From Haloferax mucosum ATCC BAA-1512 (GTDB taxonomy: Archaea > Halobacteriota > Halobacteria > Halobacteriales > Haloferacaceae): DNA of 64,000 bases. Location of the stretch: contig NZ_AOLN01000013.1 of the NCBI RefSeq assembly GCF_000337815.1, positions 1-64,000 on the forward strand, given 5' to 3'. A program made the position numbers and the translations under genes. How positions within the stretch are numbered: the first letter of the stretch is position 1; every line of letters starts with the position of its first letter. Below are positions 46,123 through 49,903 of the stretch, piece after piece. The notes beneath the pieces are model-generated. The model made no database searches. It saw nothing but the letters and a program-made list of their open reading frames with translations, and had not been told where the DNA came from.

Positions 46123-46974
46123 TCAGTGCGGCGCGTTCGTCTCGCTCGTCCCGTTCGCTTCTCTCGTCTCGCCGGTTCGGAACGAAACGTCCGCACTCGG
46201 CGCACTGTGTGTGAGCCAGCCCATCGAGACGACGTCGACGCCGGTCGCCGCGTACGACTGGAGCGTCTCCAGTGTGATACCGCCGCTCGCCTCCGAGAGA
46301 ACGCCGTCGGGGAGCCGTTCGACACCCTCGCGGACGCGTTCGGGCGAGAGATTGTCGAAGAGCACGATGTCGGCACCGGCGGCCGCGGCGCGCTCGCCCA
46401 TCTCCGGCGACTCGACTTCGACTTCGAGCTTCGTGGCGAACGATTTTCGCGCTTCGAACCGGTGAACAGCCGCCTCTAAGCCGAGTTCTTCGATGTGGTT
46501 GTCCTTTACCATCACCATCCCCGAGAGGGTGAGCCGATGGGTGTCGCCGCCGCCGGCGACGACCGCCCGTTTCTCGACGCCGCGCAGTCCGGGCGTCGTC
46601 TTTCGGGTCGCGGCGACGCGGACCGAGTCGGACGCGTCGCGGGCGAGTTCGACCGCCTCTCTGGTCGTGGTTGCGATGCCCGAGGCGTGACCGACGACGT
46701 TGGCGGCGACGCGCTCTCCGCGGAGGACGTTCCGCGCATCGCCGGCGACCTGCAGGACCACGTCACCGGCCTCGACCGACTCGCCGTTTTCGGCCGCGCG
46801 CTCGGTTTCGACGCCGAGGTAATCGAAGATGGCGACCGCGGCGTCCAAGCCGGCGACGACCACGCTTTCCTTTGCGACGAGTCGGCCGGTCGTCTCGCCG
46901 GGAACGTGATTCGTCACGTCCCGGTGTCCGACGTCTTCGGCCAGCCAGCGTTCGACCGTCTCAGTCGTCAGCAC
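46123..46974 (-). CDS. nadC: Nicotinate-nucleotide pyrophosphorylase (quinolinate PRTase)
   Basis: 283 residues. Turns quinolinate and PRPP into nicotinate mononucleotide. Conserved stretches: VAATRKTTPGLRGVEKRAVV, GDTHRLTLSGMVMVKDNHIE and EASGGITLETLQSYAATGVD. The last ~20 residues are a Ser/Thr/Asn-rich tail. The start lies inside the nadB end (14-bp overlap), and it closes the nadA-nadB-nadC operon. Confidence 0.94.
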   Translation of the reverse strand: MLTTETVERWLAEDVGHRDVTNHVPGETTGRLVAKESVVVAGLDAAVAIFDYLGVETERAAENGESVEAGDVVLQVAGDARNVLRGERVAANVVGHASGIATTTREAVELARDASDSVRVAATRKTTPGLRGVEKRAVVAGGGDTHRLTLSGMVMVKDNHIEELGLEAAVHRFEARKSFATKLEVEVESPEMGERAAAAGADIVLFDNLSPERVREGVERLPDGVLSEASGGITLETLQSYAATGVDVVSMGWLTHSAPSADVSFRTGETREANGTSETNAPH

Positions 46975-48478
46975 TGGCGATCACCTCCGACTCGGACAGC
47001 GAGTGACAACCAGCTGGCGGGGCGGATTCGGCCGCTCGCGCGACGAGAAGCGACGAGATACAGGCGTTTCGAAGTTCGTAGAGCGACCGTGACACGCGGG
47101 TTCGAGCGTAGGCATCGACTTCACCCTTCAGGCGGCGCAGTCGCGCCCGAGCGGTTTCGAGACCGTCCGGCGTTCGTTCGACGCCGGCGAACTCGTCCAT
47201 GGTCTCGCCGAGACGGTCGAACTTCGCGTCGGCGAACGCGTCTGGAAGCGCCGGGTCCGAATCCCGCGGCGGAACGTGCTCGACGGCGGTCGCGTCGCCG
47301 CGGCCTCGCGCCGCCGCGGTCTCGCCCGCCCGGGTACCCCAGACCAGCCCTTCGAGCAGACTCGTCGAAGCGAGGCGGTTCGCGCCGTGGACGCCGGTTC
47401 GGGCGCACTCGCCCGCGGCGAACAGTCTGTCGAGCGAGGAGCGACCGCGTTCATCGACGGCGATGCCGCCACAGAGGAAGTGCTCGCTCGGTGCGACCGG
47501 GATACCCGCGTCGAGTTCGACGCCGCGGTCGTCACACAGGTCGGCGAGGTCGGGGAACTCCGCGCGGAAGTCGATGTCCGAGACGTCGAGTACGACCCGT
47601 CCGGTTCGGTCGCGGGCGCGAGCGACGGCGCGGGCGACGACGTCACGAGGGGCGAGTTCGGCGTCTTCGTGCACGTCGGGCATGAATCGCCGACCGTCGC
47701 CGTCGCGCAGGACAGCACCCTCACCGCGGACGGCCTCGCTCACGAGGAACGAGTGGGCCGCGTCGTCGGCCGACGGGTCGGTCTCGGGGTCGTACGCGGT
47801 CGGGTGGAACTGGACGTACTGCATGTCCGAGATGGTCGCACCCGCGAGCGCGGCCATCGCCACGCCGTCGCCGGTCGCGCCCGGTGGGTTGGTTGACCGG
47901 CCGTAGCACGCGCCGATGCCGCCGGTTGCGAGGACGGTCGCGCCCGCGAAGACGGGTTCGACGCCGTCGCCGGTGAGAACTGTCGCGCCCCGGACGGTGC
48001 CTTCGTCAGTCACGAGGTCGAGCACCGTCGCGTCGTCGATGATGCGAACGCCGTCGCGTTCCGAGAGGTGTTCGAGGAACGGCCGGAGCACGTACTTCCC
48101 GGTGCTGGCATCGACGTGGAGGATTCGGCGGTTCGAGTGGCCCGCCTCGCGGGCGAGGTCGAAGTCGTCTCCGGCGGTATCGAACTCGACGCCGAGGGTG
48201 TCTAAAAGCACGTCTTCGACTGCCTCACGGGCGTTCGAGACGAGCACATCCACGGCCGCCGGGTCGGCGGTGTCGTCGCTCGCGCGGCGGATGTCGTCTG
48301 CGAACGCGTCCGGTGCTGACTGGGTGACGGCGATGCCGCCTTGCGCCCAGTCGGTGTTCGCGTCTTCGGGTTCGGTCGCTTTCGTGACGACGAGCACGTC
48401 CGCGCCCTCGCGGGCGGCGGCGAGTGCCGCGGCGCATCCGGCGATGCCCGACCCGACGACGAGTACATCGGTCTTCAT
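46961..48478 (-). CDS. nadB: L-aspartate oxidase
   Basis: 505 residues from ATG 48478 (MKTDVLVVG), which overlaps the nadA stop by 4 bp. FAD enzyme oxidising L-aspartate to iminoaspartate. Dinucleotide motif GSGIAGCAAALAAAREG, the ANTDWAQGGIAV segment, active-site region YVQFHPTAY, and the ECARTGVHGANRLASTSLLE C-terminal FAD contact are all intact. The long Arg-rich frame upstream of this start is an antisense artefact. Confidence 0.94.
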   Translation of the reverse strand: MKTDVLVVGSGIAGCAAALAAAREGADVLVVTKATEPEDANTDWAQGGIAVTQSAPDAFADDIRRASDDTADPAAVDVLVSNAREAVEDVLLDTLGVEFDTAGDDFDLAREAGHSNRRILHVDASTGKYVLRPFLEHLSERDGVRIIDDATVLDLVTDEGTVRGATVLTGDGVEPVFAGATVLATGGIGACYGRSTNPPGATGDGVAMAALAGATISDMQYVQFHPTAYDPETDPSADDAAHSFLVSEAVRGEGAVLRDGDGRRFMPDVHEDAELAPRDVVARAVARARDRTGRVVLDVSDIDFRAEFPDLADLCDDRGVELDAGIPVAPSEHFLCGGIAVDERGRSSLDRLFAAGECARTGVHGANRLASTSLLEGLVWGTRAGETAAARGRGDATAVEHVPPRDSDPALPDAFADAKFDRLGETMDEFAGVERTPDGLETARARLRRLKGEVDAYARTRVSRSLYELRNACISSLLVARAAESAPPAGCHSLSESEVIASADD

Positions 48479-49656
48479 AGTTCGAGCATGCGGTCGAGTG
48501 CGACCGCGGCGAGTTCTTTCTCCTCGGGTGCGACCTCGACGACGTTCGGTTCGCGGCCGTCGGCCAGTTCTTCGAGCACCCACGTCAGGTAGTTGGGGTC
48601 AACCTGCCGCATGGCGTTGCAGTCCATGCAGGCGTCGCCGCAGAGCGGACGCACATCGACTTCGGGGTGCCAGCGAGCGAGGTGTCGCGCGAGGTGGACT
48701 TCGGTGCCGATAGCCCACGTCTCGCCGGGGTCAGCGTCGGCGATAACGTCGCAGATGTGGCTCGTCGAGCCGACTTCGTCCGCGGCCGCGACGACGCTCG
48801 GGCGGCACTCGGGGTGGACGACGACGTTCGCGCCCGCGGCGCGGGCGTCTTCGACGTGTTCGACGCGGAAGCGTTCGTGAACTTGACAGTAGCCGTCCCA
48901 GAGGATGACTTCGGCGGCTTCGAGGTCGGCATCGTCGAGACCAGGGAGGTCGCCATGTTCGTCGGCCAGGGCGTCCGCGTTGCCGTCGGCACCTGCGACG
49001 CCGCCCGCCCACGGGTCCCACTCGACGACGTTCTCGATGCCGAGGTCGTTGGCCGTGTTGCGGCCGAGGTGTTTGTCGGGCAGAAAGAGCACGGCGTCGC
49101 CGCGCTCGAAGGCCCACTCGAAGGCGTCGGCGGCGTTGGAAGACGTACAGATGAGGCCGCCGTGGGAGGCGCAAAACGCCTTCAGGTCGGCGTAGGAGTT
49201 CATGTACGTAACCGGGAGGATGTCCTTGCCGCCGGTTCCCTCGATGAGTTCTTCCCACGCGGAATCGACCTGCACGGCCTCGGCCATCCCCGCCATCGGA
49301 CACGACGCCTCCATCGACGGGAGAATCACCGTCTGGTCGTCGTCGGTGATGATGTCCGCGCTCTCGGCCATGAACGTCACGCCGCCGAAGACGACGTAGT
49401 CGGCGTCTGACTCGGCGGCGCGCTTCGAGAGTTCGTATGAGTCGCCGATGAAGTCCGCGTGCTCGACGATTTCTCGGCGCTGGTAGTTGTGTCCGAGGAC
49501 GATAACGCGGTCGCCGAGTTCCTCGCGGGCGGCGGCGATACGCTCGGCGCGTTCGGCCTCGTCGAGGTCTCGGTGGCTCTCCGGTAGCTGTTCGAACGTA
49601 TCGTATTTGAACAGACTGAGGTCCGACTCGAATCCGACCGACTGTAATTCAACCAC
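48475..49656 (-). CDS. nadA: Quinolinate synthase
   Basis: 393 residues with a GTG start at 49656; no in-frame ATG fits the N-terminus. Condenses iminoaspartate with DHAP using a [4Fe-4S] cluster. The three cluster Cys are recognisable in ASCPMAG, CTSSNAA and DACMDCNAM. VIVLGHNYQRREIVEHADFI is typical. First gene of nadABC. Its promoter overlaps a 41-bp imperfect palindrome at 49686-49726, a strong candidate for NAD-dependent control. Confidence 0.94.
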   Translation of the reverse strand: MVELQSVGFESDLSLFKYDTFEQLPESHRDLDEAERAERIAAAREELGDRVIVLGHNYQRREIVEHADFIGDSYELSKRAAESDADYVVFGGVTFMAESADIITDDDQTVILPSMEASCPMAGMAEAVQVDSAWEELIEGTGGKDILPVTYMNSYADLKAFCASHGGLICTSSNAADAFEWAFERGDAVLFLPDKHLGRNTANDLGIENVVEWDPWAGGVAGADGNADALADEHGDLPGLDDADLEAAEVILWDGYCQVHERFRVEHVEDARAAGANVVVHPECRPSVVAAADEVGSTSHICDVIADADPGETWAIGTEVHLARHLARWHPEVDVRPLCGDACMDCNAMRQVDPNYLTWVLEELADGREPNVVEVAPEEKELAAVALDRMLEL

Positions 49657-49685
49657 GAATTTTCACCACGATTATCCCACCATCA

Positions 49686-49726
49686 GTAGGCCATATTGAA
49701 AAATATTTTTCTTCAATGTAGCCTAC
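49686..49726 (-). promoter_or_regulatory. Palindromic operator over the nadABC promoter
   Basis: GTAGGC at 49686-49691 pairs with GCCTAC at 49721-49726; inside, ATTGAA (49695-49700) pairs with TTCAAT (49712-49717). In total 16 of 21 positions of the half-sites match. On the minus strand the AT-rich centre and AATATGG form the only TATA-like element, ~30-40 bp before the GTG start. A repressor bound here would block transcription factor binding. It is the strongest operator-like palindrome I noticed in the window. Confidence 0.65.
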
Positions 49727-49903
49727 ATGCCCTTACTTTTTCTCTTGAATAGATATTGGTCCGTAGTATGGGTCACGAATCAGCGATACACCGCACAAAA
49801 GCCCGCGTACTCGTTGAAGAATGATTTTATTCAAAATGAGTCGCCGGTTGGTGCGGGTTGTTCGACGTGAGACCTCCTGCGCACTGTCGTGTGGGGGTGG
49901 CTG

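Follow-up and report, generated by a model that had tools for sequence, protein, structure and literature searches.

The window analysed here is the whole stretch of 64,000 nucleotides at positions 1 to 64,000 of contig NZ_AOLN01000013.1 of Haloferax mucosum ATCC BAA-1512. On its minus strand it carries the genes for de novo NAD synthesis, in the operon order nadA-nadB-nadC. Upstream of nadA lies the palindrome GTAGGCCATATTGAAAAATATTTTTCTTCAATGTAGCCTAC, which corresponds to the letters at 49686 to 49726. The features of this locus are the following:

49814 to 49834, minus strand: distal candidate operator TTGAATAAAATCATTCTTCAA, 118 bp upstream of the proximal copy and overlooked in the preliminary description
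49721 to 49726, no strand: outer right arm of the palindrome, GCCTAC, unconserved and probably outside the operator
49695 to 49717, no strand: proximal operator plus its flanking A/T pair (ATTGAA...TTCAAT), 0 mismatches
49696 to 49716, minus strand: proximal candidate operator covering the nadABC BRE/TATA, a 21-bp dyad with the sequence TTGAAGAAAAATATTTTTCAA and the form TTGAA-N11-TTCAA; it agrees with the class pattern at 0 mismatches, and the dyad is present at 79/80 nadA loci
49699 to 49708, minus strand: predicted TATA region for nadABC, a strongly conserved AT-rich core at positions 9-18 of the operator
49686 to 49691, no strand: outer left arm of the palindrome, GTAGGC, unconserved and probably outside the operator
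49683 to 49684, minus strand: predicted transcription start, at a distance of about 25 nt from the centre of the TATA (conserved G33/A34)
48475 to 49656, minus strand: nadA, quinolinate synthase, first gene of the operon (GTG start at 49656; Pfam NadA, E-value 3e-89)
46961 to 48478, minus strand: nadB, L-aspartate oxidase (ATG at 48478)
46123 to 46974, minus strand: nadC, nicotinate-nucleotide diphosphorylase

The preliminary description presented positions 49686 to 49726 as a 41-bp palindrome with half-sites bounded by GTAGGC and GCCTAC. The palindrome itself is real. Its symmetric pairs match in 16 of 20 cases, and it is the sole 41-bp stretch in the window with at least 16 such pairs, hence the best dyad there. 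A first-order Markov model predicts about 0.08 dyads of this quality per 64 kb, and none of 2000 simulated intergenic regions matched a 41-bp dyad with at least 16 pairs. Its edges, however, were placed wrongly. The scan for GTAGGC-N29-GCCTAC that had been proposed returns the original site and nothing else in the whole H. mucosum genome (this and the other genome-wide statements are based on pattern searches), and the outer arms are absent from the other haloarchaeal loci compared, including those of Haloferax. As half-sites these arms are rejected, being found in the H. mucosum genome alone. Since they are confined to this genome while the inner element is conserved, it is the inner 21-bp dyad at 49696 to 49716 that constitutes the true element, and symmetry over 41 bp has arisen in H. 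mucosum by coincidence.

The conservation of the inner dyad reaches well beyond Haloferax. In a sample of 80 named haloarchaeal nadA loci from many genera, whose upstream sequences were compared, the dyad is found just upstream of nadA in 79, at a near-constant distance (most often 37–38 nt from the matched start) and between flanks that diverge; locus L065 has a shifted variant of the dyad only. Footprinting of nadA promoters, suggested as a check in the preliminary description, thus reveals an element of the whole class. The consensus of the nadA sites is TATTGAAGRNAAAANTTWTTCAATA, in which G at operator position 3, AA at positions 4-5 and CA at positions 19-20 are near-invariant and the flanking positions are much less conserved. 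Such conservation of dyad-symmetric half-sites across divergent promoters resembles what is found for the operator of a dimeric regulator. Covariation between the half-sites is mixed, with a Fisher p of 0.005 for positions 1/21 and of 1.0 for positions 2/20, values that are not phylogeny-independent and are given no weight here.

As originally described, the palindrome at 49686 to 49726 does overlap the sole TATA-like stretch in the nadA upstream region. A second AT-rich box was not found between the operator and nadA. This single TATA-like core lies within the dyad, and about 25 nt downstream of the core's centre a G/A is conserved, where a start site would be expected; the dyad thus sits on the BRE/TATA. 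The deviations from the palindrome at nadA sites lie mainly in the 3′ half, with T-rich TATA letters in place of TTC, a pattern which suggests that these sites are a compromise between operator and TATA.

The distal copy is found at 118–119 bp, or about 11.2–11.3 helical turns, in 8 of the 10 Haloferax compared; it is missing from H. elongans and H. larsenii, and the copy in H. massiliensis is degenerate (12/16). In several Haloferax species the distal operator has the form TCGAAGAAAATTATTCTTCAA, which resembles the type of site found before the symporter described below. In most Haloferax this second operator may strengthen the proposed repression of nadABC.

The genome scans show that the dyad is specific to two operons. 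The pattern TYGAANNNAANNNTTNTTCAA has 47 exact matches in 148 genomes of the family, compared to 0 for the reversed control, and a slightly relaxed pattern matches in 118 of 252 genomes of the class, with 1 match for the reversed control. From the 142 distinct sites that were classified, 101 precede nadA (100 assigned by script plus L165, where nadA is divergent), 33 precede a gene for a DUF3311 protein, and 8 precede neither. In about 300 genomes, nearly all sites thus fall before the nadA and DUF3311-SSS operons, the former for NAD biosynthesis and the latter for a candidate precursor transporter with a predicted substrate. The 8 remaining sites look mostly like chance matches, except one before an MFS transporter. 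A self-regulated gene carrying the operator does not occur among the classified sites, and no candidate was found for a conserved regulator gene beside nadABC, DUF3311-SSS or pncB; both results count against the reading proposed below.

In the H. mucosum genome a genome-wide pattern scan yields two sites only, the nadA site and G000:C6:167538-167560. The latter lies 63 nt upstream of the gene for a 71-aa DUF3311 protein, which is followed by a sodium symporter of the SSS family. The dyad stands about 60 nt upstream of this operon in all 15 Haloferax genomes, and in the four that do not have nadA it is found there and nowhere else. The symporter sites form a more perfect palindrome, the unconstrained form TTGAAGAA-N5-TTCTTCAA, and positions 3/19 and 5/17 are invariant and symmetric in the 46 distinct sites. 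A separate conserved TTTA box is located about 35–40 bp downstream of the dyad centre in these promoters. Genera missed by the exact pattern have a degenerate symporter dyad, YCGAAGAA-N5-TTCTTCGR or similar, in which the GAAGAA-N5-TTCTTC core and the 60-nt spacing are kept. In genome G171 (L222 1376-6835), nadABC, the dyad and DUF3311-SSS follow each other in tandem. The gene flanking the symporter is not constant: in Haloferax a TIM-barrel (AP_endonuc_2) gene diverges from it (L134 5170-5910), and in other genera dnaG, an EamA-like gene or another gene is found. Because this divergent neighbour varies among genera, the operator goes with the symporter. In many symporter promoters (L333-L347) the dyad is followed, about 10–14 nt further downstream, by a TCGAA element that resembles a half-site and may be a third contact.

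The symporter belongs to the SSF family (Pfam PF00474), which it has in common with the PanF pantothenate and MctP monocarboxylate symporters. The nearest model by score is that of PanF (NCBIfam TIGR02119), with 166.7 bits against an equivalog cut-off of 328; the MctP model (NCBIfam NF046076) gives 101.7 bits against 625. The protein thus differs from both in scoring far below their cut-offs, and also in its DUF3311 partner and its NAD-type operator.

The distribution of NAD routes in the family fits with a role of this symporter in precursor uptake. De novo NAD synthesis is patchy, with nadA in 52 of 148 genomes, and nicotinate salvage is general, nicotinate phosphoribosyltransferase (pncB) being present in 147 of 148. 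The symporter occurs in 135 of these 148 genomes, including 90 of the 96 without nadA; consequently, import plus salvage is the NAD route to be expected there. Genomes without nadABC should need an importer, and the symporter is the obvious candidate for this role. Two genomes that have kept nadA contain a partial match to the symporter gene (G005:C3:2841385-2842251 and G022:C2:520311-521129), and in the former (L206) the gene is split over two frames, like a decaying gene. In H. volcanii, NadB is HVO_2580 (PMC8241124), and HVO_2579-2581 are identified as nadC-B-A, the flanking genes being assigned from the gene order around HVO_2580. Deletion of HVO_2579-2581 impairs growth in synthetic medium, and in low salt these genes are reported to be strongly induced at 68 h compared with 26 h, a contrast of time and not of niacin (PMC12852389). 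This induction indicates that the operon is transcriptionally regulated, without indicating the controlling signal.

Known regulators provide useful comparisons. One functional parallel is NiaR. In its regulon in Bacillus, Streptococcus and Thermotoga, the de novo gene nadC is controlled together with the niacin uptake genes niaX and pnuC (PMC5343564), a control of both synthesis and uptake like that of the regulon proposed here. However, the 3H domain of NiaR (PF02829) is found in 0 of 14 Haloferax genomes, while the B. subtilis and T. maritima controls are positive, and the candidate transporter in haloarchaea belongs to the SSS family and is paired with a DUF3311 protein. The NiaR site presumably differs in sequence from the haloarchaeal dyad as well. 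It looks as if the regulon works like a NiaR-type niacin regulon, yet the domain by which that family is defined does not occur in Haloferax. NrtR also controls transcription of de novo NAD synthesis, as is proposed here, for example in M. smegmatis (PMC6800001); its winged-helix domain (PF21906) was likewise detected in 0 of 14 Haloferax genomes, with four control genomes positive. NiaR and NrtR are both rejected as the regulator because their domains are absent from these 14 Haloferax genomes. The archaeal nitrogen repressor NrpR has GGAA-N6-TTCC as its operator, a GAA/TTC-type dyad as here, but half-site and spacing differ. Its domain NRD1_2 (PF01995) is sporadic: 21 of 252 haloarchaeal genomes encode it, none of them a Haloferax, and NrpR is rejected for these reasons. 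NadR and NadQ are not known outside bacteria. In open-access papers, no description was found of an archaeal NAD regulator, or of a function for the DUF3311-SSS symporter.

Altogether, we propose, with a probability of roughly three in four, that an undescribed regulator of NAD-precursor supply uses the 21-bp dyad as its operator; this regulator would repress nadABC by masking the TATA and co-control a candidate niacin transporter. The preliminary description had suggested a NAD-biosynthesis operator of an undescribed regulator; the class-wide footprint argues strongly for this at the inner half-sites, and the outer arms drop out. In the proposed mechanism, a putative dimeric transcription factor would recognize the symmetric half-sites of TTGAAGAA-N5-TTCTTCAA. 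By covering the BRE/TATA at the nadABC dyad, it would keep off TBP/TFB and so repress de novo synthesis. The same factor would bind about 60 nt upstream of the DUF3311-SSS start, about 35–40 bp upstream of the TATA of that operon, where its effect could be either repression or activation. If one factor serves both operons, the symporter is likely to import niacin or another, related precursor of NAD, although the score far below the PanF cut-off makes a different substrate possible. The factor would probably respond to nicotinate or to NAD itself. The finding is larger than first noted: a class-wide candidate operator and a proposed two-operon regulon conserved throughout Halobacteria. The operator is defined exactly enough to be tested in a group amenable to genetics (Haloferax volcanii), and a substrate can be predicted for an orphan transporter that occurs in almost every genome of the family without de novo NAD synthesis.

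At nadA the dyad falls on the sole TATA-like element and has an AT-rich centre, as would be the case if it were simply a conserved core promoter (BRE plus TATA), palindromic by chance and served by no dedicated regulator. This is very improbable, as the symporter promoters have their separate downstream TATA and nevertheless conserve the dyad in a more perfect form, the distal copy in Haloferax is 118 bp away from the proximal promoter, and a general promoter element would not be nearly confined to two operons across about 300 genomes. The same symporter promoters also provide a point against the main reading, since a dyad upstream of the TATA box does not fit with simple TATA occlusion. A position 35–40 bp upstream of the TATA is more usual for archaeal activators, so that a variant of the main reading can be considered in which the regulator, bound to niacin or NAD, blocks the TATA of nadABC as a repressor and acts on the symporter from upstream as an activator, giving a switch between making and importing the precursor. 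We regard this variant as tentative, and rather unlikely on balance: in auxotrophs without nadA, niacin scarcity would then turn uptake off, and the conserved G/A at the same +33/34 in both promoter classes could mean a further symporter start from a TATA inside the dyad. A slightly more doubtful extension would have a regulator from a family new to NAD exert class-wide control over synthesis and over DUF3311-SSS as a previously unassigned sodium:niacin symporter, repressing the former and activating the latter.

The sensed signal might also lie outside NAD precursors, for instance in the redox state or another carboxylate, with the symporter importing something else. The SSS family does include monocarboxylate and pantothenate carriers, and the nadABC induction in H. 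volcanii was seen during low-salt growth (PMC12852389). We nevertheless consider this improbable, because nadABC makes only the NAD ring and the symporter is near-universal where nadABC is missing, in a family where pncB is all but constant.

Two further observations concern individual genomes. The 598-kb plasmid NZ_CP119792.1 of Haladaptatus sp. QDMS2 (L235) carries nadABC with a one-mismatch operator, near genes for an agmatinase, an NrpR-domain protein and another SSS symporter. The latter is a different protein without the dyad, and the DUF3311-SSS symporter itself had no match on annotated plasmids. In genome G279, the operator-like site precedes a gene for an SV2/SLC22-like MFS transporter (L201 3534-4922), possibly an alternative niacin carrier, which we mention as a lead only; the NiaP niacin transporters presumably belong to a group similar to this protein.
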